Below are positions 27,668-44,337 of a stretch of DNA of 64,000 bases, piece by piece. Source of the stretch: Phellopilus nigrolimitatus. Lineage: Eukaryota; Basidiomycota; Agaricomycetes; Hymenochaetales; Hymenochaetaceae. The DNA lies in contig JAJOHG010000008.1 of the NCBI GenBank assembly GCA_021029095.1, positions 310,001-374,000 on the forward strand, written 5' to 3'. Both the position numbers and the translations under genes were made by a program. How positions within the stretch are numbered: position 1 is the stretch's first letter; each line of letters opens with the position of its first letter. The notes under the pieces are model-generated. The model saw nothing but the letters and a program-made list of their open reading frames with translations, was not told the origin of the DNA and searched no databases.

Positions 27668-29357
27668 CTAAGAGGGTCGAGTACCAGACGACTCGGAGCG
27701 GACGACGCTTTGGAAATGCATATCACTCATGGCTGCTAGCATAGTGTCAGAGCCTCCGTTCAAGCCTCTTTCCGCTGCCTCATGCAAATTGAAGAGGAGC
27801 CGACTTCCGAGGACGCAGAGAAGGGAGGCATTGGAAAACCCAGACACCAGGCTCTTGAAAAGCCCTCCGTCTAACCAGTAGGACATCAAACTCGCAATGT
27901 CACAAGCAATCACGCTGTCAGAGAGGTTTTAGAGTAATTGTAAGTGTGGATATGAATGCTGAAGGGATGAATATAGAGACAACGAACACGAAGAAATAAA
28001 CCACTTGGTCCCTGACGAGGACGGATATCAATTTGGACCGGTGGAAACCCTTCGATAGCCTGCAGAATTTCGTAGCTTCATGTATCACCAAAGCTAAAAG
28101 AACAAGTTCGAATATGAGGGGTACAACCCTAGAAAGATGTGAGTTGCCTCCGAGTCCCTTGAAGGTGAGCGATCTAAGTTGGAGAACTGACCAATATAAA
28201 GTGGCCCAAATTTGTTGGAATTCCCCATTGCTTCCGCATTCAGATGCGCCATTTGCGAACGCTAGGCCGACTGAGATTCTTCAGTAAAGGGCCCTAACTA
28301 GAGTGAATATGAACTTACCTTTAAGTGAAATCTCGATATATAAAAGAATGGCAAACATCAAGACAGCCTCTAAAGCGAAGAGTGCCGAAAGACCGCGAGC
28401 TATCCTCCTGTCTGAAGAAGGTGATGAAAACGTTTTCTCTTGCTAATTTCCGGGAACAAACCTCCGGAGAAAAAAGCGAGGACTCTCAATAGAAGAATGT
28501 CTGTAATATCTGTCATTCAGCGAAGGGTATATGTCTAATTTGACTTGCACTTGCAGTCAATCAGAAGTATTCCAATCATTCCTTTATTTGATCGTTAAGT
28601 AGATGAGCGATCAAAACAATTTGAACAGCAACTTACCGGCTACCTGGTGGGTCCACTCGTCAAAACGGCCTATCAGCAACCATTGATGAAAATGAAAATC
28701 ATGATTTGTCGAATAAGGGTATCGGAAGCCTACAGCTATTATCTTTTGTAAATCGTCGAGGAAAACAAATGAGAAGTGGTGAAAAAATCACTTACTCAGT
28801 GTTGCTGATAGGGAAGTAGGCTAATTATAAGAGTGATCTAAGCATCTGCGCTCTGCAAAGTATGCGCAGACACGGCCTACTATCTATATCCACTGTGGCC
28901 GCAAACAGTCCAATATAACGATTCTGTAGCGTCATTCCAAAAGTTAGATATCGAATGCAAAAGGGGGAAACAACCTATGTTGAACAACCTCACCAAGAAG
29001 AATACCCAGGAAGAAAGTTTCCGAGGAGAACTCTGACGAAAGAACTCCATTCGTGACATTCATTGCACCAAATCACTTGTCAACAGCTTACCCAGAAGTA
29101 TTTAACCTACACATTGTGCAAATGTGTGAACCACCGCCATGGGAATGAGACTGACAAACTGACCTCCTTTTCAAATGTTATTACTGCGGGATAGGTATTG
29201 GTACTACACCCAGTTACTCGTTGAAGAACTTTGGGACTCAACTAATATCATAGACAAGAAGAGACGTAGCTGCGAACCGACAGTATTTTTCCATAGTTAA
29301 GGAAAACAAGTCCCCAATCTGAGCGGGTATATCGCCATTATTGCCTTCAGTTGACAT
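27668..29357 (-). CDS. DUF6533-type membrane protein, copy B
   Basis: Minus-strand paralogue with an intact start at 29,357 (MSTEGNNGDIPAQIGDLFSL), then YCRFAATSLLVYDI, the ITFEKE exon, microexon VKYFW, SSPRKLSSWVFFL and NRYIGLFA. Later exons hold FELVLLALVIHEATKFCRLS and ISVLVRDQVVYFFV. The last exon (27,913-27,668) has IACDIASLMSYWLDGGLFKS and the SLLCVLGSRLLFNLHEAAER tail. Two residues in the KFWKL loop differ from copy A (KFCRL). All donor and acceptor sites in the parts I traced are GT-AG. Probable role: integral membrane protein of unknown function. A PrpD fragment lies directly upstream and unit 3 follows. Confidence 0.65.
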
Positions 29358-32539: not shown

Positions 32540-34231
32540 CTAGAAGCGTCGAGTACCAGACGACTCTAAGCGGAGGACACTTTGGAAACGCATATCACTC
32601 ATGGTTGCTAGCATAGTGTCAGAGCCTCCGTTCAGGCCTCTTTCCGCTACCTCATGCAAATTGAAGAGGAGCCGACTTCCGAGGACGCAAAGAAGGGATG
32701 CATTAGAAAAACCAGACACCAGGCCTCTGAAAAGCCCTCCGTCTAACCAGTAGGACATCAAACTCGCAATGTCACAAGCAATCACGCTGTCAGAGAGGTT
32801 TTAGAGCAACTGTAAGTAGGATATAAATGTTGGAGGATGAATACAGAGACAACGAACACGAAGAAATAAACCACTTGGTCCCTGACGAGGACGGATATCA
32901 ATTTGGACCGGTGGAAACCCTTCGATAGCCTGCAGAATTTTGTAGCTTCATGTATCACCAAAGCCAGGAGAACAAGCTCGAATATGAGGGGTACAACCCT
33001 GGAAAGATGTGAGTTTCCTCCAAGTCCCTTGAAGGTGAGCGATCTAAATTGGAGAACTGACCAATATACTGTAGCCCAAATTTGTTGGAACGCCCCATTG
33101 TTTACACAATCGGATACGCCATCTTGGAATGCTAGGCCGACTGAGATTCTTCAGTAAAGGTTCCTAACTGGAATAAATGAACTTACCCTTGAGTGATATC
33201 TCGATATATAAAAGAATAGAAAACATCCACACAGCCTCTAAAACGAAGAGTGCCGAAAGACAGCGGGATATCCTCTTGTCTGAAGAAGGTGATCAAATTC
33301 TTTTCTCTTGCTAATTCCCGGGCACAAACCTCCGGAGAAAAAAGCGAGGACTCTCAGTAGAAGAATGTCTGTAAGATCTGTTATTCAGCGGAGGGGATAT
33401 ATCTAGCTTGAATTGTACTTGCAGTCAATCAAAAGTACTCCAATCATTCCTTTTTTTAATTATTAAGTAGAAGATTTGTCAGAACATTTTTAAGATTAGC
33501 TTACCGGCTAGTTGGTGTGTCCACGCGTAAAAAAGGCCTGTCAGCAACCATTGATTAGATCCCATGAAAATGAGAATCATGATTTGTCGAATACGGGTAT
33601 CGAAAGCTTACAGCTATTATATTTTGTAAATCGTCGAGATGAACTAATGAGAATCGGTAGAAGTCACTTACCGAGAATTGTTAAAGGTAGGAAAGTAGGC
33701 TGATTATAAGCGTAATCTAAGCGTCTACGCTCTCCAAAGTATGCAAAAACACGACCCACTGTCTGTATCCACGATGGCCGCAAATAATCCAATATAACGA
33801 TTCTGTGGTGTTATTCCGGGGTTGGATATCGAAAGGGGGAACGACATATGTTGAACAATCTCACCAAGAAGAATATCCAGGAAGAAAGTTTTCGGGGAGA
33901 GCTCTGATGAAGGAACTCCATTCGTGACATTCATTGCGCCGAATCACTTGCCAATAGCTTACCCAGAAGTATTTGACCTATGCATTGCACAAATGTGTGA
34001 ATCACCGCCATGGGAATGAGACTGACAAACTCACCTCCTTTTCAAATGTGATTACTGCGGGATAGGTATTGGTACTACCGATCAATAGTTACTCGTTGAA
34101 GAAATTGGAACTCAACTAATATCATAGACAAGAAGAGACGTAGCTGCGAACCGACAATATTTTTCCAAAGTCATGAAAAACAAAGCATCGATCTGAGCGG
34201 CTATATCGCCATTGTTACCATCGGTTGCCAT
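32540..34231 (-). CDS. DUF6533-type membrane protein, copy C
   Basis: Minus-strand paralogue with an intact start at 34,231 (MATDGNNGDIAAQIDALFFM) and then YCRFAATSLLVYDI. Microexon VKYFW, SSPRKLSSWIFFL and NRYIGLFAAI follow, with the last exon at 32,785-32,540 (IACDIASLMSYWLDGGLFRG and SLLCVLGSRLLFNLHEVAER). The exon chain matches copies A and B in order and spacing. No frame break was found in the parts traced. This is the best preserved of the four array copies, and its first exon serves as the reference for the one-base insertion in copy A. Confidence 0.65.
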
Positions 34232-35728: not shown

Positions 35729-36708
35729 AAATGGATTGTCGGACGACTCCCGACTTTGGAGTGCATTTATGAAGGAGTTTCAACTGTCGTAAGAAATTCC
35801 GGATTGGATATGTTCAAAATTGATCATTAAAACAACGTGAAAGATGGATGGTCTGCCTATGGAGAAGATGCATGAAGTATGGGACTGGTGCAGGCAAGTA
35901 TGAAAATGAAATGGAGGTGGGAGCCTAGACGTGGGCGTTTACATACATGCAAGCTGATATTATCTGCTTTTCATGAGCCTTGAATCAAAGCGAAGGTGGG
36001 GCATTTTGTACATTTGTCAAAAACAAGCCAGATCCTCAAAAAAGGTGGTTATAATATCACAATCATGACATACGCAGATCTACACGCAAATTGTGCACCG
36101 TTCCATTACTTGACTTCGGCGTCCATACTGCAGATTATTATGTACAGTTACATGCAGGGTAAAGCATCGATAAAATCTGGAAAAATCCAGACATCAGTCG
36201 ACCAATCAAATGTTTTGCCTTTATGAAGAAGGTTCCAGGACCGCACCTTGAACACCGGCAAATCTAAGAGGGTCGAGTACCAGACGACTCGGAGCGGACG
36301 ACGCTTTGGAAATGCATATCACTCATGGTTGCTAGCATAGTGTCAGAGCCTCCGTTCAAGCCTCTTTCCGCTGCCTCATGCAAATTGAAGAGGAGCCGAC
36401 TTCCGAGGACGCAGAGAAGGGAGGCATTGGAAAACCCAGACACCAGGCTCTTGAAAAGCCCTCCGTCTAACCAGTAGGACATCAAACTCGCAATGTCACA
36501 AGCAATCACGCTGTCAGAGAGATTTTAGAGCAACTGTAAGTAGGATATAAATGTTGGAGGATGAATACAGAGACAACGAACACGAAGAAATAAACCACTT
36601 GGTCCCTGACGAGGACAGATATCAATTTGGACCGATGGAAACCCTTCGATAGCCTGCAGAGTTTTGTAGCTTCATGTATCACCAAAGCTAAAAGAACAAG
36701 CTCGAATA

Positions 36709-36729
36709 CATCAGGAAAAACCCAAAATG
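36709..36729 (+). repeat. left terminal inverted repeat
   Basis: A 21-nt sequence starting CATCAGGAAAAACCC. It pairs with 42,532-42,552 with one C indel. Confidence 0.88.
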
Positions 36730-36868
36730 ATATATAGTGCTAGATACGGGTATATAAATAAATTAGGTAAAATAGGAAGAATACGTTAATACCCCTTTAT
36801 ATAAGCTATATTGCAGACCCACCCCAGTATATACTAATATATATTATAAACTGAGTGCTATATACTGC

Positions 36869-36895
36869 TATATAGTGCTAATATAGCACTATATA
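36869..36895. repeat. subterminal palindrome of the TIR element
   Basis: The stretch tatatagtgcta followed by its inverse tagcactatata forms a near-perfect palindrome. The same tatatagtgc core recurs near the right end (about 42,464-42,475), as expected for subterminal transposase-binding repeats. Confidence 0.65.
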
Positions 36896-36997
36896 ACAGG
36901 CCTGCCAGGTATTTTAGTTCTATATAACCCCCCAGTTTACTATTTCCTGGCTATTTTTGTGCTATATAGTGTTATATAGATGTACATACTGGCAAGA

Positions 36998-37013
36998 GGG
37001 GGGGGGGGGGGGG
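36998..37013. repeat. poly-G tract
   Basis: A run of 16 G just inside the AT-rich left end. It is slippage-prone and could be an assembly weak point. Confidence 0.8.
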
Positions 37014-38091
37014 TAGGCTAGCTTTGGGATTTGGCAAAATGAATGCAGACTGTCATAGCAATGATTTAAAGACTGTAATCATTATATAGAAATACAATAG
37101 CATCTACATTAAGCTGCATATCAGGTATCAAGGTAGAAGAGATGCTGAAAAGGAAAAGAAGGGGGAAGAGGGAAACTAGGGGCATGAGGGTGATGTGGGT
37201 GATGTGGGTGATGAGGGTGTGTAAAACCAAAAGAGTGACTAAGAGAAAAGCAGAAATGACCTGGAGCAGATTGTGAAGGAACCAGCTCAAGACCAAAGCT
37301 GAGATGACTGGCAACTGGCAAGTTAGATAGAACTGAGCTTAGTATATCAGCTGACTCACCATTAGAGACATCTGCATGATGGCTAGCAGCAGCATGAAAT
37401 TGAGATCACAGGAAACTAGTAACAGCTTGCTGTTTCCTGCAGTATCCTAGGTAAAGGTGTATTAGTATCATGATGCAGGCCACTATTATCAAGTAAGGAT
37501 TGGAAATGAGGAATGCTGGTGATGAGATTTCACCAAGCTGCATGAGAAGAGATGATCATACATTATGATAAAAAGCAGGAGTGAAGAAATCATGACATTG
37601 AATTCTAGGCCAAGCTACATCCAAAGCATGACCAAAGAATATAGGTCAGGTGACGAGTTATGTTGTCTGAAGACAATATACCCTCAACAGTCAAGCAAGT
37701 CAATAGTAGGATGACATGCAGATAGACCATGTGAGGGAAGATAGAACATAGCACCAACTGAAACATTTCAGGATGCTATACTGGAGATGATATAGGGTAA
37801 AGGTATGAGAAGGAGAAAATGATGAAATTCACATTTCTCCTTCTATACAGGTCCCATAGAATAGACAATGACATTTGAAGTAGCTAGGTGGACTTACTGG
37901 TATAAGGAGAGAGGAATACAGCAGGAAGGAGAAATTTTGGAGAAATGAAAGAGGCAAAAAAATTAGTCATGTGAGATGGTGGCGGTCAGAAAGAAAGAAC
38001 TACAGAACCTTGATTTCGGATTTATAGAGGTAATCACATGACCTATAAACAATCCCAAACAATTCCAATTTGGGATAGTAATTCTCAGGTA
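37014..38091. other. non-coding left cargo of the TIR element
   Basis: AT- and A/G-rich sequence with no open frame of note and no transposase motif. A cluster of tandem gtgatgtgg/gtgatgagg units lies near 37,190-37,220. Confidence 0.5.
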
Positions 38092-38388
38092 TGAAAAAAA
38101 AAAAAAAATGGCACGCACTGGGGATTGAACTTCTGCCCTCTCGAAGCTGAGGGCTTTTATTTTCAAAATAAAATAAAATAAAATAAAATAAATAAGAGGG
38201 TAACGTTGTTCACGTTGGCTAGCACCTACCGCCAAGCAAAGCTAGTGGGCAAGATAGTCCAGGCGGGAAACTTCCAGTTACCCAGTGGCGGGTGCATAAA
38301 GTGCGGACACTCGAAAGACACCTGAGTCTATGGGACCCTCGATACACTTCGGGAAGTGCTCAACCAACTGAGCCATTATGGCATGATT
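38092..38388 (-). repeat. tRNA-related SINE-like sequence
   Basis: On the minus strand the sequence begins near 38,385 with TGGCTCAGTTGGTTGAGC, a perfect RNA polymerase III A box in a D-arm. About 50 nt on, a degenerate B box (TTTCGAGTGTCC) follows. A unique middle and an (AAAATA)n microsatellite come next. The far end holds AGTTCAATCCCCAGTGCGTG, which looks like a tRNA T-arm and acceptor end, followed by a run of T. It is therefore either a tRNA-derived SINE or a tRNA gene split by an insertion. It lies wholly inside the TIR element. Confidence 0.55.
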
Positions 38389-38472
38389 ACTTTTCAAATT
38401 TCTCGCTATAGGACCTCATTCTCTTAGTCTCAAATTTAATTTGACTTCATCTTCCGGTTTCTCATTCTGTGA

Positions 38473-38939
38473 TTGTATCTCGCAGTTGTCATTGCATATC
38501 TATATTTAGTTACATGTGCATGTGATGCTACCGTGAACAAATCAAAAAGACGTTTACTTTGCGACACCATTGTTTCTGCGCCGCCCTCATTTTTGTGTCA
38601 TCCTCGTCGCAGCTTCGCTATTGTGCCGGTCTCCTTACACCACCTGCTGATATCGCCTCCGCATCGGCCTTTCCGGCACGCTACACATCGGGTCCACCCC
38701 AACGCCCCCCGCAGCCGCCGCGCTCAGGCACGCACACCAGGGAGGGCCCGCCGTACGCTTCTGCCAAGAGAGCATACGGGCGCTGCGCCACCTCCCCGTC
38801 CTCCTCCCCCGGCAGGACGCCGCTCTTGCTCACGATGCACCGCGCAAAGTACCTCAGCACGCCGGACGGCGAGTTGTCGCTCGACCCGGGTCCATTCGTC
38901 ACTGCGCTCGAGGAGGCCGTCGGCAAGCTGGGCCGCGCA
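38473..38939 (+). other. GC-rich segment of unknown origin inside the TIR element
   Basis: A plus-strand frame at 38,559-38,942 ends with HRAKYLSTPDGELSLDPGPF and ALEEAVGKLG. It is abruptly GC-rich compared with the left cargo and abuts the Hsp70 fragment. Probably another captured exon; the source was not recognised. Confidence 0.4.
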
Positions 38940-39916
38940 TGATCGAGTTGCGCAGGTTGTACGCGTACGACTCGAGGCCGTCCTTGGCAGTGATGCGCGA
39001 AGCAGTTTCATCATCCTAAATTATAAGGGAAATATAGTCAGATTTCGGTATGGATGATAGAACTAAACATTTGCTTACCCGTGACTTCTCGGCATCGCTA
39101 GCCATACCCTCGCTCTCCTCCTTCGTAAGATGACCGTTGTCGTTGGTGATCGTAATGCGGTTCGACTTTCTGGTCGTCTTGTCCGAGGCGGACACGTTGA
39201 GAATACCGTTGGCGTCGATGTCGAAAGTGACCTCAACCTGAGGAACACCACACGGCTTAGGCGAGATACCAGAAAGCTCGAACTTGCAGAGGAGGTTGTT
39301 GTCCTTCGTGCGCGCACGCTCGCCCACGAAGACCTGTATAAGGACACCGGGTTGGTTGTCAGCGTACGTCGAGAAGATTACAGACGTCTTAGTCGGGAAA
39401 GTCGTGTTGCGCTTGATGAGCGCCGTCATGACACCGCCAGCGGTCTCGATACCGTGCGAGAACAGTGCAACATCGAGGAGGATGAGGCCCTGAGTCTTCT
39501 CGGACATGTCGCCGGTAAGGATAGCAGCCTGGACAACAGCACCGTACGCGACAATCTCGTCGGGGTTGATGGACTTGTTGGGCTCCTAGCCATTGAAGAA
39601 GTTTGAGACAAGCTTCACGATACGGAGGATACGGGTGGAACCACCGACGAGAACGATCTTGTGAACGTTCGATCTTCAAGTCACGGAGGACCTTCTCGAC
39701 CGGCTGAAGCGTGCTATGGAAGAGGTCCTGGCAAAGCTCCTCGAAACGAGCACGGGTAAGGGAGGTGTAGAAATCGATTCCCTCGAAGAGCGAGTCGATC
39801 TCAATGGTGTTTGCACGGCCGAGGAGAGGGTTCGCTTGGCGCGCTCGCAAGCTGTGCGGAGACGACGAACATGGGGGTTGGTCCTGGCATTCAGAAAAAG
39901 TCAGCTTCGGCGCCAA
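38940..39916 (-). pseudogene. Hsp70 fragment, C-terminal half (copy 2 of the mosaic)
   Basis: On the minus strand: [97 protein letters not shown] and [20 protein letters not shown]. After an intron comes GLESYAYNLRNSI. These are consecutive motifs from the nucleotide-binding domain lobe II through the substrate-binding domain of a cytosolic Hsp70 (Ssa type). It is broken by frameshifts before VEKV and a stop near EPNKS, and it lacks the N-terminal ATPase half. No chaperone can be made from it. Confidence 0.85.
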
Positions 39917-39949
39917 CTCACATTAAAAGAAGACTAGACGTACCCTTTT

Positions 39950-40285
39950 TGTGTGTGCACGCACACCCCGCTCTCCCAGTTGCGCACGGTTGAGGCCAGC
40001 GTGCAGCTGTACGCCGTCGCGGCGCTGTCCTCGCCGATCACCGCGTCCGTCACCCGCTCCGTATGGTTCTTCAGCACCGCGAGCAGCGTCTTCTGCCGGG
40101 GCGGCGGCGGGTCCCACACGCCCGCACCCTCCACCCGGAGCCGCTTCGCGCGCGCCTTGGGGCCGGGGGCGGGCACGGCGGTGTCCCAGAGCCCGACGAG
40201 CGCATCCCAGCCCACCGTGAGCAAATGCGCGCCAGCCGCGGACACGGAGACCGCGGGGAGCGGCGCAGTGTGCAGGAGGTTGTTG
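39950..40285 (-). pseudogene. YTM1/WDR12-like WD40 fragment (copy 2 of the mosaic)
   Basis: On the minus strand: [71 protein letters not shown] and [14 protein letters not shown]. The order WD repeat, K/R-rich spacer, LKxHTxRV and the next WD repeat matches the ribosome-biogenesis factor Ytm1 (WDR12). The fragment is fused in frame to an Hsp70 segment ([16 protein letters not shown]). It covers roughly two WD repeats of the usual seven plus an N-terminal UBL domain, so it is a captured piece. Confidence 0.75.
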
Positions 40286-40289
40286 TCCT

Positions 40290-41698
40290 TCGTGCGCGCA
40301 CGCTCGCCGTCGAAGACCTGGATAAGGACACTGAGCTGATTGTCGGCATACGTCGAGAATATTTCGGACTTCTTCGTCGGAACGGTCGTGTTGCGCTTGA
40401 TGAGCGCCGTCATGACACCGTCGGCGCGAAAGCGGGCCGACGTCGAGAAGTCCTGAGTCTCCTCGGAAGTGTCACCGATGAAGATGGCAGCTTGGACAGC
40501 AGCACCGTACGCGACGGCCTTGTCGGAATTGATGGATTTGTTTGGCTCCTTGATGTTTGAGACGAGCTTCACGATACGGGAGATACGGGTGGAAACACCG
40601 ACACAACTGAATCTGCGAACATCGCCTTATCGATCTTCGAGTCGCGGAAGACCTTCTCAACCGGCCCAAGCGTGCTACGGAAGAGGTTCTGGTAAAGTTC
40701 CTCGAAACGAACATGGGTGAAGAAGGTATATAAGTTGACGCCGTCGAAGAGCGAGTCGATCTCCGTGGTGGCTTGCGCGGTCGAGGAGAGGGTGCGCTTG
40801 GCGCGCTCGCAAGCTGTGCGAAGACGACGATCGCACGGTGGTTGGTCGACAGATCTAAGGTTTAAAAAAGTCAGCTTCGGCGCTACTCTACATTGAAAGA
40901 ACACCAACGTACCCTTTTTGTCCTTGCGTCTGAACTCCTGGACGAAGTGGTTGACCAGACTGCTGTCGAAGTCCTCACCGCCCAAGTGTGTGTCACCAGC
41001 GGTAGCCTTTACCTCGAAGATACCCTCCTCGATGGTCAGGAGGGACACATCGGAGGTTCCTCCACCGAGATCGAAGATGAAGACATTTCGCTCGCCCTGG
41101 ACTTCTTGTCGAAACCGTACGCAATGGTGGCGGCGGTCGGCTCGTTGATGATTCGGAGGACGTCGAGGCCAGCAAAAACACCGGCGTCCTTGGTCGCCTG
41201 GCGCTGGGAGTTGTTGAGGTACGCCGGGACGGTGACGACTGCACCGAGGTAAGACTCGGCGGTCTCCTTCATCCTGGTGAAAACCATAGACGAGATCTCC
41301 TCAGGGGTCTATACACGGACGGCTCGTCAGTACGGTGTGCAATGCATACAATCAACCATTAAGAAAATACTAACGAATTCCTTGGTCTCGCCACGGTACT
41401 CGACCTGGATGACGGGTTTCTCACCCTTGGAAAACGATGGTGAAAGGGAAATGCTTCATGTCGGCCTGAACCTCCGGATCTGCGAACTTGCGGCCGATAA
41501 GGCGCTTAGCGTCGAATGTCGAGAAGATTTCGGACTTCTTCGTCGGCACAGTTGTGTTGTGCTTGATCGGCCGATGAGGCGCTTCGCATCGAAGACGGTG
41601 TTGACGGGGTTCGTGGCCATTTGGTTCTTGGCGGCATCGCCGATGAGGCGCTCCTGGTCGAAGGAGACATACGACGGCGTGGTAGGGTTGCAATGATC
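40290..41698 (-). pseudogene. Hsp70 fragment, nearly from the N-terminus, internally scrambled (copy 1 of the mosaic)
   Basis: On the minus strand: [111 protein letters not shown] and [16 protein letters not shown]. Then come [40 protein letters not shown] and [17 protein letters not shown], which run into the YTM1 fragment. Hsp70 chaperone motifs are unmistakable. The C-terminal segment [17 protein letters not shown] has also been copied into the ATPase domain between two copies of DAKRLIGR. Several frameshifts (after AYGFDKK, around the DLSTN motif) disable it. Confidence 0.85.
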
Positions 41699-41699
41699 T

Positions 41700-42010
41700 C
41701 CACAAGGTCGTGCAGCTGTACGCCGTCCGCGCCGAACCCCGTGCCCGTCACCCGTTCCGTGTGGCTCTTCAGCGCCGTGAGCGGAGCCTGCCGCGTCCCA
41801 CCCGCGCGCGCTGTCTACCCGGTGCCGCTTCGCGCGCGCCTCACGGCCAGGGTTGGTGACCTCGTCCACCGAGGACACGGCGATGTCCCAGAGCCCGACG
41901 AGCCCGCTGTGAGCAGGTGCACGCCGGCCACGGACACGGCGACCGCGGAGAGCGGCACGGTGTGCAGGTGCAGCATCGCGACCATGCGGCTCGAGCGCTT
42001 CTGGGCCAAA
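41700..42010 (-). pseudogene. YTM1/WDR12-like WD40 fragment (copy 1 of the mosaic)
   Basis: On the minus strand: [45 protein letters not shown] and, after a frame change, [18 protein letters not shown]. It is the same YTM1 region as at 39,950-40,285 and likewise abuts an Hsp70 fragment. This shows that the YTM1-Hsp70 pair was duplicated within the element. Confidence 0.7.
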
Positions 42011-42531
42011 AGCGCGGTGAGGTGTGCGAGGCGGCGTCCGGCGGCGTGTCATGTGTGAGAGGGGGAGGGGTTGGGTTGGGTAGACGCAGATGGACGCGGC
42101 TGGGGCGGCTTGTCCCGGGATCGCGTGCACGTCTGAGGGCGAGCGCGTCGTATGCTGCGGTGACGAAGTGCCTGTGCGTGCGGTGAGGACGCCCCGTCAA
42201 ATGACATCCGCATTGGGCACCAGCGGCTCGGCAATTCCCGGAAGTGTTGGATGGATTGTAAATTATTTTGCTCGTACTTTGAAGCAAGGAAAAGGAATTA
42301 TACTGTATATACCAAACATTGCACTATTTACTGCTATATACCAAAAAACTTGAGCTATATTGTAATATATATTACTGTGACCAAACTAGATAGCACTATC
42401 TTCACTATATAATTGATCCTAGTGGTGATATACCACTATATATGCAATATACTCTATATATTGCTATATAGTGCCGGTTTAAAAGTATATAGCACCATAT
42501 ATCACCATATATCTTTCCAATTGAGTATATT

Positions 42532-42552
42532 GCATTTTGGTTTTTCCTGATG
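42532..42552 (-). repeat. right terminal inverted repeat
   Basis: Ends gttTTTCCTGATG immediately before the duplicated TA at 42,553-42,554. It is the inverse of 36,709-36,729. Confidence 0.88.
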
Positions 42553-44337
42553 TATGAGGGGTACAACCCTAGAAAGATGTGAGTTTCCTCCGAGTCCCTT
42601 GAAGGTAAGCGATCTAAATTGGAGAACTGACCAATATAAAGTGGCCCAAATTTGTTGGAATTCCCCATTGCTTCCGCATTCGGATACGCCATTTGCGAAC
42701 GCTAGGCCGACTGAAATTCTTCAGTAAAGGGCCCTAACTAGAGTGAATATGAACTTACCTTTAAGTGAAATCTCGATATATAAAAGAATGGCAAACATCA
42801 ACACAGCCTCTAAAACGAAGAGTGCCGAAAGACCACGAGCTATCCTCCTGTCTGAAGAAGGCGATGAATTTATTTTCTCTTGCTAATTCCCGGGCACAAA
42901 CCTCCGGAGAAAAAAGCGAGGACTCTTAGTAGAAGAATGTCTGTAAGATCTGTCATTGAACGAAGGGTATATGTCTAATTTGACTTGCACTTGCAGTCAA
43001 TCAAAAGTATTCCAATCATCCCTTTATTTGATCGTTAAGTAGATGAATGATCAAAGCATTTTGAATAGCAACTTACCGGCAATCTGGTGGGTCCAATCGT
43101 AAAAAAGGCCTGTCAGCAACCATTGATCAGGTCCATAAAAATGAGAATTTTGATTTGTCGAATAAGGGTATTGGAAGCTTACAGCTATTATCTTTCATTA
43201 ATTGTCGAGACGATCAAACGAGAATCGGTAGAAGTCACCTACCGAGCGATAGAAAAGTAGGCTAATTATAAGCGTGATCTAAGCGTCTACGCTCTGCAAA
43301 GTATGCAAAAGCACGACCCACCGTCTGAACCCACTATGGCCGCAAATAATCCAATATAACGATTCTGCGGTGTTATTCCGGGGCTGGATATCAAAAGGGG
43401 AAACAACCTGTGTTGAACAATCTCACCAAGAAGAATACCCAGGAAGAAAGTTTTCGGGGAGAAGTCTGATGAAGGAACTCCATTCGTGACATTCATTGCG
43501 CCGAATCACTTGTCAACAGCTTACCCAGAAGTATTTAACCTACACATTGCACAAATGTGTGAATCACCGCCTTGGGATGAGACTGATAAACTCACCTCTT
43601 TTTCAAACGTTATTACTGCGGGATAAGTATTGGTACTAACGACCAACAGTTACTCGCTGAAGAATTTTGAAACTCAACTAATATCATAGACAAGAAGAGA
43701 CGTAGCTGCGACCTGACAATATGCTTCCACATTTGAAAAAACGATTTCCTTGGTCTGAACGGACATATTGCCGTTGTTACCATCGGTTGACATATTGTTG
43801 TATAATATGGTTTCAATAGTGTCGTTCGTACAAAGGACAACTCAAGTGGAGAAACCCTGACAGAGCCGTTATCGTTTATAAAAGCGACGCTTGAACGTCA
43901 CCCTGAAATTAGATCATGATGTTGATCGAGACGCGCTCCTGGTTCGAGGTATATAATATTGTATTTGCGGTGAAAGCGGAAGGTTTGACTCCTTACACTA
44001 CTCCTCACGAGGCCCGGGCAGTTGCAGCATCTCGATCCTATACTACATAATCAGAGATCCTTTCGATGTGATCAGGAAGCACATACGGACCCAGAAAAAG
44101 AAACTAGGATGTCAAACAAGCCGCTGAGGGGGAGGGGAGGGCTTGAGTAGAGTAACGTACAGCTACCAAATCGTTTCGTTTTTCCATTGGTGTAAAGATG
44201 TTGCTTGCAGAAGCAGAGCTCAGTTAATGGGGCTGTTTAGGGCCGGTCAGTGATCTCATTGGACACGTGCCGGCTCTGGGCGGGTGCACAACTTGGATCG
44301 GTACTGCGTGTCCTGGGACGACCGGTTTTGACGAATA

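Follow-up and report, generated by a model that had tools for sequence, protein, structure and literature searches.

A probable Pack-type Plavaka transposon carrying HSP70 and WD40 gene fragments in Phellopilus nigrolimitatus

Termini, Target Site and Empty Sites

The window is a stretch of 64,000 nucleotides (C614:310001-374000) of the draft assembly of Phellopilus nigrolimitatus, a basidiomycete of the Hymenochaetales whose genome is listed as saprophytic (PMC10410303, excerpt) and which is assembled as 56.4 Mb in 635 contigs, given here by C numbers. It contains a precise 5.8 kb insertion at positions 36709-42552 that carries scrambled fragments of host genes and is bounded by perfect 14-bp terminal inverted repeats (TIRs) and a TA target site duplication (TSD), with exact empty sites in related sequences. 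A preliminary description, made from the sequence alone, had fixed both ends to the base and named a duplicated TA as well as empty sites in paralogues; searches with the TIR and with the empty-site sequence CTCGAATATGAGGGGTAC reproduce all of these exactly. The features at and around the termini are as follows.

36707..36708, no strand: left TSD copy, TA (flank comparison and empty site)
36709..36722, plus strand: left TIR CATCAGGAAAAACC, with an imperfect extension to about 36729
42539..42552, minus strand: right TIR CATCAGGAAAAACC (sequence search)
42553..42554, no strand: right TSD copy, TA (flank comparison)
32977..32994, plus strand: exact empty site in a tandem paralogue (CTCGAATATGAGGGGTAC, 0 mismatches)
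28107..28124, plus strand: empty site in a tandem paralogue (CTCGAATATGAGGGGTAC, 1 mismatch)

The window holds no third CATCAGGAAAAACC match at up to 2 mismatches. Because 7 of 100 shuffled controls also give two such matches, the TIR alone is not strong evidence; the remaining signs are independent of it, and two matches to CTCGAATATGAGGGGTAC arise in none of 100 shuffles. Beyond the 14 perfect positions the repeats continue with a one-base indel and then AAAATG, so the inverted repeats of about 20 bp in the preliminary description are present as an imperfect TIR.

The element lies inside one unit of a tandem array (window 23594-43786). The array has at least four related units, one about every 3.8-4.9 kb, and a similar array is found on contig C233. 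Taken as a 23-mer, the empty site is exact at C233:2521 and C233:7359, and two further paralogous places diverge from it (C233:11057 with 7 mismatches and C108:45535 with 5).

Captured Host Gene Fragments

The interior of the element is a mosaic of two host genes. Pfam Hsp70 is recognized in five of six scanned open reading frames on the minus strand, bearing out the Hsp70 pieces of the preliminary description. A WD40 piece of 99 aa shows a 70% match to a 459-aa open frame at C101:569247-569561; the name YTM1 comes from the preliminary description only, and what was tested here is homology to the C101 gene together with WD40 profiles. The host references are HSP70 on C555 (L080 coordinates) and the YTM1-like gene on C101 (minus strand of L079), and the pieces map to them as follows.

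38938..39952, minus strand: HSP70 fragment, host L080 946-1986, 87%, introns 2 and 3 retained
39953..40276, minus strand: YTM1-like WD40 fragment, host L079 622-972, 79%
40274..41516, minus strand: HSP70 fragment, host 334-1633, 84%, introns 1 and 2 retained, 3 bp overlap with the YTM1 match
41518..41567, minus strand: 50-bp HSP70 filler, out of order, host 1506-1555, 92%
41568..41689, minus strand: HSP70 exon-1 fragment, host 235-359, 91%
41721..42194, minus strand: YTM1-like fragment, host L079 698-1241, 70%

All pieces share a single orientation and, in minus-strand sense, run YTM1 1241-698, HSP70 235-359, 1506-1555 and 334-1633, YTM1 972-622 and HSP70 946-1986. Their joins abut, lie 1 bp apart or overlap by 3 bp (YTM1/HSP70 at 40274-40276), and the outer YTM1 piece stands 31 bp away from HSP70. 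The retained introns indicate capture from genomic DNA.

Thirteen loci were mapped for these joins. The join of YTM1 970-972 with HSP70 1631-1633 is repeated in C614, C412, C533, C135, C346, C489 and C625, and that of HSP70 946 with YTM1 622 in C614, C533, C135, C346 and C68:554-555 kb. The HSP70/YTM1 module also lies inside the transposase-bearing elements of C489 and C482, and in C489 its HSP70 sense strand is opposite to that of the transposase.

Further repeats contain the 3' part of HSP70 (host about 1378-2301) at L081, L082 and L083 and at L027, L084 and L085. CATCAGG ends were not noticed in either set; the similar boundaries within these repeats suggest another type of gene-carrying repeat.

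The CATCAGG Family Across the Genome

Copies of the TIR elsewhere in the genome, on which the preliminary description had made its element depend, are plentiful: 101 matches to the 14-mer occur at up to 1 mismatch, where the reversed control sequence gives 9. The genome-wide search for facing ends that it had proposed yields a family of relatives. Pairs were hand-picked by strand and distance among 100 of the 101 sites, plus one more-diverged right end at C607, which gives 32 inward-facing pairs; pairs with more diverged ends would be missed. Two were removed before TSDs were counted, C171 as a palindrome and C601 as the same site as C217, leaving 30.

A 2-bp TSD flanks 24 of these 30 CATCAGG...CCTGATG pairs, a count with a binomial probability of about 5e-24 when the chance rate is 1/16. 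The dinucleotides are TA, TT and GT (three each), TG, CT, AA, TC and AC (two each), and single cases of GA, CA, AG, AT and GG, the last possibly GGG. The copies on C135 and C346 align over 6,402 bases with 99.28% identity and differ in flanks and TSDs, which suggests that some movement is recent. Sequence comparison gives two suggestive signs of mobility, the empty sites and the 99.3%-identical copies at separate sites.

As to the two pairs set aside, C171:4492-19632 (L038, L039) shows two facing left ends of the family with mirrored flanks and is a large palindrome or an assembly artifact. An 8.75 kb element at C217:15152-23904 and a 3.10 kb element at C601:87767-90870 (L030, L061, L062) apparently occupy the same insertion site; they are probably two haplotypes or duplicate contigs.

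Plavaka Transposase and Subterminal Repeats

The PF18759 (Plavaka) profile gives 18 exon-level matches genome-wide and none in the window element, in keeping with the preliminary description of an interior without a transposase. Three of the PF18759 loci are placed at or between CATCAGG ends, namely C489:149382-165711, C482 and C68:223726-234890. The C489 element spans 16,330 bp with both ends present and a TT TSD (PF18759 E 5.9e-80). C482 (E 2.1e-81) retains its right end at 2542, its left end being lost at the end of the contig, and its recorded protein has 921 aa with PF18759 and PF20722. The C68 element bears a transposase between an AC TSD. C489 and C482 share the terminal subtype of the window element, and the right-end 5,062 bp of C489 are 95.9% identical to C482.

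The elements examined also carry short repeats near their ends. In the window element these are concentrated in two zones.

36709..37158, no strand: left subterminal zone, 7 TATAGTGCTATAT copies at up to 2 mismatches
42203..42552, no strand: right subterminal zone, 6 TATAGTGCTATAT copies at up to 2 mismatches

All 13 repeats thus lie within 450 bp of the left end or 350 bp of the right end, and the 5,044 bp between the two zones hold no copy at that threshold. In the HSP70 family, six of six elements tested have 13 or 14 copies of TATAGTGCTATAT and none mid-element. Three other CATCAGG elements contain a GTCAAATC-like subterminal repeat, and each of the three has copies at positions 21 and 31 counted from its left end. 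The 14-bp TIR is common to the CATCAGG subfamilies and the subterminal repeat differs between them. These motifs, picked by eye and without a shuffled control, are putative transposase-binding sites.

Five more Plavaka transposases (C346:126257, C83:897, C113:105354, C390:40602 and C555:766194) score lower as a group and do not belong to the CATCAGG pairs examined. Four of the five score alike, and the group is possibly of the PlavakaA kind.

Interpretation and Proposed Mechanism

The element is very probably a non-autonomous Pack-type Plavaka transposon, PlavakaB-like and CMCT/CACTA-related. CATCA..TGATG termini, a 2-bp TSD and PF18759 in the C489, C482 and C68 elements with the same ends place it beside PlavakaB. 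The lack of a transposase, TIRs compatible with an autonomous family and captured host coding DNA with parental copies at C555 (HSP70) and C101 (WD40) are the marks of Pack-TYPE elements. The central proposal of the preliminary description, a Pack-type TIR transposon with captured fragments of host genes, thus stands, and its mobilization in trans is probable.

A Plavaka transposase from relatives, C482 or C489 for example, would recognize the TATAGTGCTATAT repeats that these elements share near their ends. It would cleave at CATCAGG/CCTGATG and insert the element at any dinucleotide, generating the 2-bp TSD. The HSP70 and WD40 pieces would have entered in the form of genomic DNA, with template switching in gap repair or stalled replication inside an element as the likeliest route, and would then have been reshuffled between element copies. 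A less favored source of the joins is the route modeled for Pack-CACTA, in which tandem insertion is followed by aberrant excision with terminal deletions (PMC13317346, excerpt). No internal TIR is found in the window element at up to 3 mismatches, which is a weak argument against this route because the model, as excerpted, deletes the inner ends.

Several points weigh against a PlavakaB-like Pack-type element that is moved in trans. Six of the 30 pairs have no TSD (C625:123900, C30:40326, C135:30591, C555:213345, C446:104868 and C625:161615). The likeness to PlavakaB is one of termini, TSD and PF18759 relatives rather than of placement in a PlavakaA/B tree, and mobilization in trans is a step that we infer. 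The autonomous member sought by the preliminary description is found in part: C489 is a complete element with a transposase, but its recorded Plavaka protein has only 322 aa. C482 in turn is cut at its left end, so none of the elements of the window element's terminal subtype is seen to be both complete and equipped with an intact transposase. Tandem insertion and aberrant excision is also a candidate route for capture. Finally, a one-time capture followed by neutral decay leaves the excess of third-position differences between many HSP70 clades unexplained.

Decay and Origin of the Cargo

The HSP70 fragments appear to be pseudogenic. The mapped loci hold 19 exon-3 fragments, of which frameshifting indels interrupt 17 and in-frame stops 5, the only fragments free of a frameshift being the near-identical ones of C412 and C533. 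A whole HSP70 is present in none of the 13 mapped loci, and no coding function of the cargo is detected. Differences between close copies are spread evenly over first, second and third codon positions, as expected without selection (7, 7 and 8 for C489 and C482; 3, 7 and 5 for C533 and C135; 11, 21 and 17 for C489 and C625). Many distant or host pairs show a third-position excess (17, 15 and 46 for C614 and host; 18, 14 and 33 for C412 and C625), with C489 and L081 (25, 31 and 27) as an exception.

A midpoint-rooted tree was built from host HSP70 and the 16 fragments that cover 300 or more of 524 sites, excluding shorter fragments and L081-L083; its true root was not obtained for lack of a paralogue. 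The host clusters with C625:23539 and C179 (support 0.93), and support is weak (0.15) at a deeper node. On the branches toward the host, all changes fall at third positions (0, 0 and 7; 0, 0 and 6; 0, 0 and 4). This grouping and these branches together suggest more than one capture from host HSP70, a conclusion that we hold loosely.

Alternative Explanations

A bolder account, which is unlikely but deserves mention, is that HSP70 and YTM1 have been sampled repeatedly and that the antisense module is kept even in transposase-bearing elements because it is useful to them. It might, for example, yield RNA that matches host genes, so that silencing would come at a cost to the fungus, or it might be a former cargo gene. 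If true, Pack-Plavaka would amount to a general system of gene shuffling in mushrooms, fed by housekeeping genes.

Less probable still is that the HSP70/YTM1 module is, or once was, a working cargo gene of a master lineage, comparable to TET/JBP in some Plavakas, with the scattered copies as decayed offshoots. The third-position excess between many clades, set against the even close pairs, would fit such a gene, as would the module in the transposase-bearing C489 and C482 and the frameshift-free exon 3 of C412 and C533. The prevalence of frameshifts and the lack of any whole HSP70 in the mapped loci speak against it. The third-position-only internal branches toward the host fit repeated capture instead, and the excess is not universal, being missing between C489 and L081.

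The preliminary description had proposed a Pack-type element mobilized by a TA-targeting, mariner-like transposase, for which the TA at the window element is the evidence. This is very improbable. The closest relatives carry TT (C412), GT (C533), GA (C135), TG (C346) and TT (C489), and TA accounts for only 3 of 24 TSDs. The family thus does not target TA, and the TA at the window element is a single draw from many dinucleotides. Plavaka transposase is found in relatives with the same ends, and the non-TA TSDs within the element's own subfamily refute assignment to Tc1/mariner, which duplicates TA only.

Helitrons capture gene pieces in fungi (PMC4289320, excerpt), but a Helitron or other rolling-circle element, which would have neither TIR nor TSD, is refuted by the paired TIRs and by the 2-bp TSD, which occurs whatever the sequence context. 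Mis-assembly of unrelated contigs has next to no likelihood despite a draft of 635 contigs with at least one site on two of them (C217/C601), because two joins recur in copies on other contigs with different flanks, and the empty sites are exact.

Relation to Known Systems

The comparisons in this section draw on excerpts of the cited papers. PlavakaB as published has CATCA..TGATG ends and a TSD of 2 or 3 bp, some members carry a captured TET/JBP gene, and CACTA and Plavaka belong to the same broad transposase group (Kojima 2025, PMC12730594). The window family resembles PlavakaB in its ends, 2-bp TSD and same-ended Plavaka relatives; unlike published PlavakaB, the window element lacks a transposase and contains scrambled HSP70/WD40 fragments. 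The preliminary description's "unusual class" is partly right: its ends and TSDs are known (PMC12730594), but no published Pack-type Plavaka was found among the open-licence papers listed, judged by titles and abstract openings.

Plant Pack-CACTA and Pack-TYPE elements are likewise non-autonomous TIR elements that carry host coding DNA and are mobilized by autonomous relatives (PMC8903248, PMC13317346). Compared with Pack-CACTA, the window element has a fungal host, CATCA ends and a 2-bp TSD, its cargo also occurs in transposase-bearing relatives, and fragments from two genes take turns in it, overlapping by no more than 3 bp at their joins. One fungal paper (PMC10853768) merely cites the plant Pack-CACTA work.

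Fungal transduplication is known for hAT and Tc1/mariner (PMC3538342, PMC6710886). The histone H3 cases of Pyrenophora and Pseudocercospora similarly involve a fungal DNA transposon that amplifies a housekeeping gene, but these are ascomycete hAT elements with 8-bp TSDs and, in P. fijiensis, an intronless H3. The present case is a basidiomycete Plavaka with 2-bp TSDs, retained introns and two interleaved genes. In animal Pack-TIRs, capture by template switching with short microhomology has been proposed (gap filling or FoSTeST, PMC8277862); those cases are hAT, TcMariner and FB4, whereas here Plavaka shows several switches between the same two genes.

PlavakaB ends and TSDs, as well as TET/JBP capture, are already known. 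The present element adds the Plavaka branch and a basidiomycete to gene capture by TIR transposons, which is well described in plants, recently in animals, and in ascomycetes for hAT and Tc1/mariner. Many copies with shared joins make the order of capture and rearrangement readable, and relatives carry a transposase, which offers a testable system for exon pick-up and shuffling by TIR elements in fungi.

Other Host Genes and Minor Features

No fewer than 21 pairs out of 30 contain pieces of host genes, from HSP70/YTM1 in 6, from eIF3a in 7 and from a proteasome-type AAA ATPase in 8. This is a lower bound because the search covered only genes seen in fetched elements. The likely host eIF3a gene is at C90:294492-295634, and the eIF3a match of C446 scores a weak 29.8 bits where the cut-off is 27. 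The nine pairs without a recognized piece comprise three of 161 bp (C57, C1, C19), five of 3.5 to 8.8 kb (C39, C217, C60, C113 and C390, with interiors read for C39 and C217 only) and the C68 transposase element. A ribosomal L23 match in C217 falls below threshold (24.4 against 27 bits) and was left out of the count.

The preliminary description had also placed a tRNA-like short interspersed element (SINE) in the interior. A tRNA-like stretch is present, with one core.

38359..38379, minus strand: tRNA A-box-like core (21-mer search)

ARAGORN finds no tRNA in it. The core 21-mer has 8 genome copies at up to 2 mismatches, more diverged copies falling outside the search, and all 8 sit in members of the window element's family, C482 and C625 being counted as incomplete members. 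A dispersed SINE is therefore not supported.

In C625:97000-126999 (L013-L015), a relative of the window element starts at 99140, with no matching right end in that stretch. Also in this stretch are part of a KDZ transposase (L014:4307-5011, PF18758) and, at 123900-125916, another CATCAGG element with proteasome-ATPase pieces.

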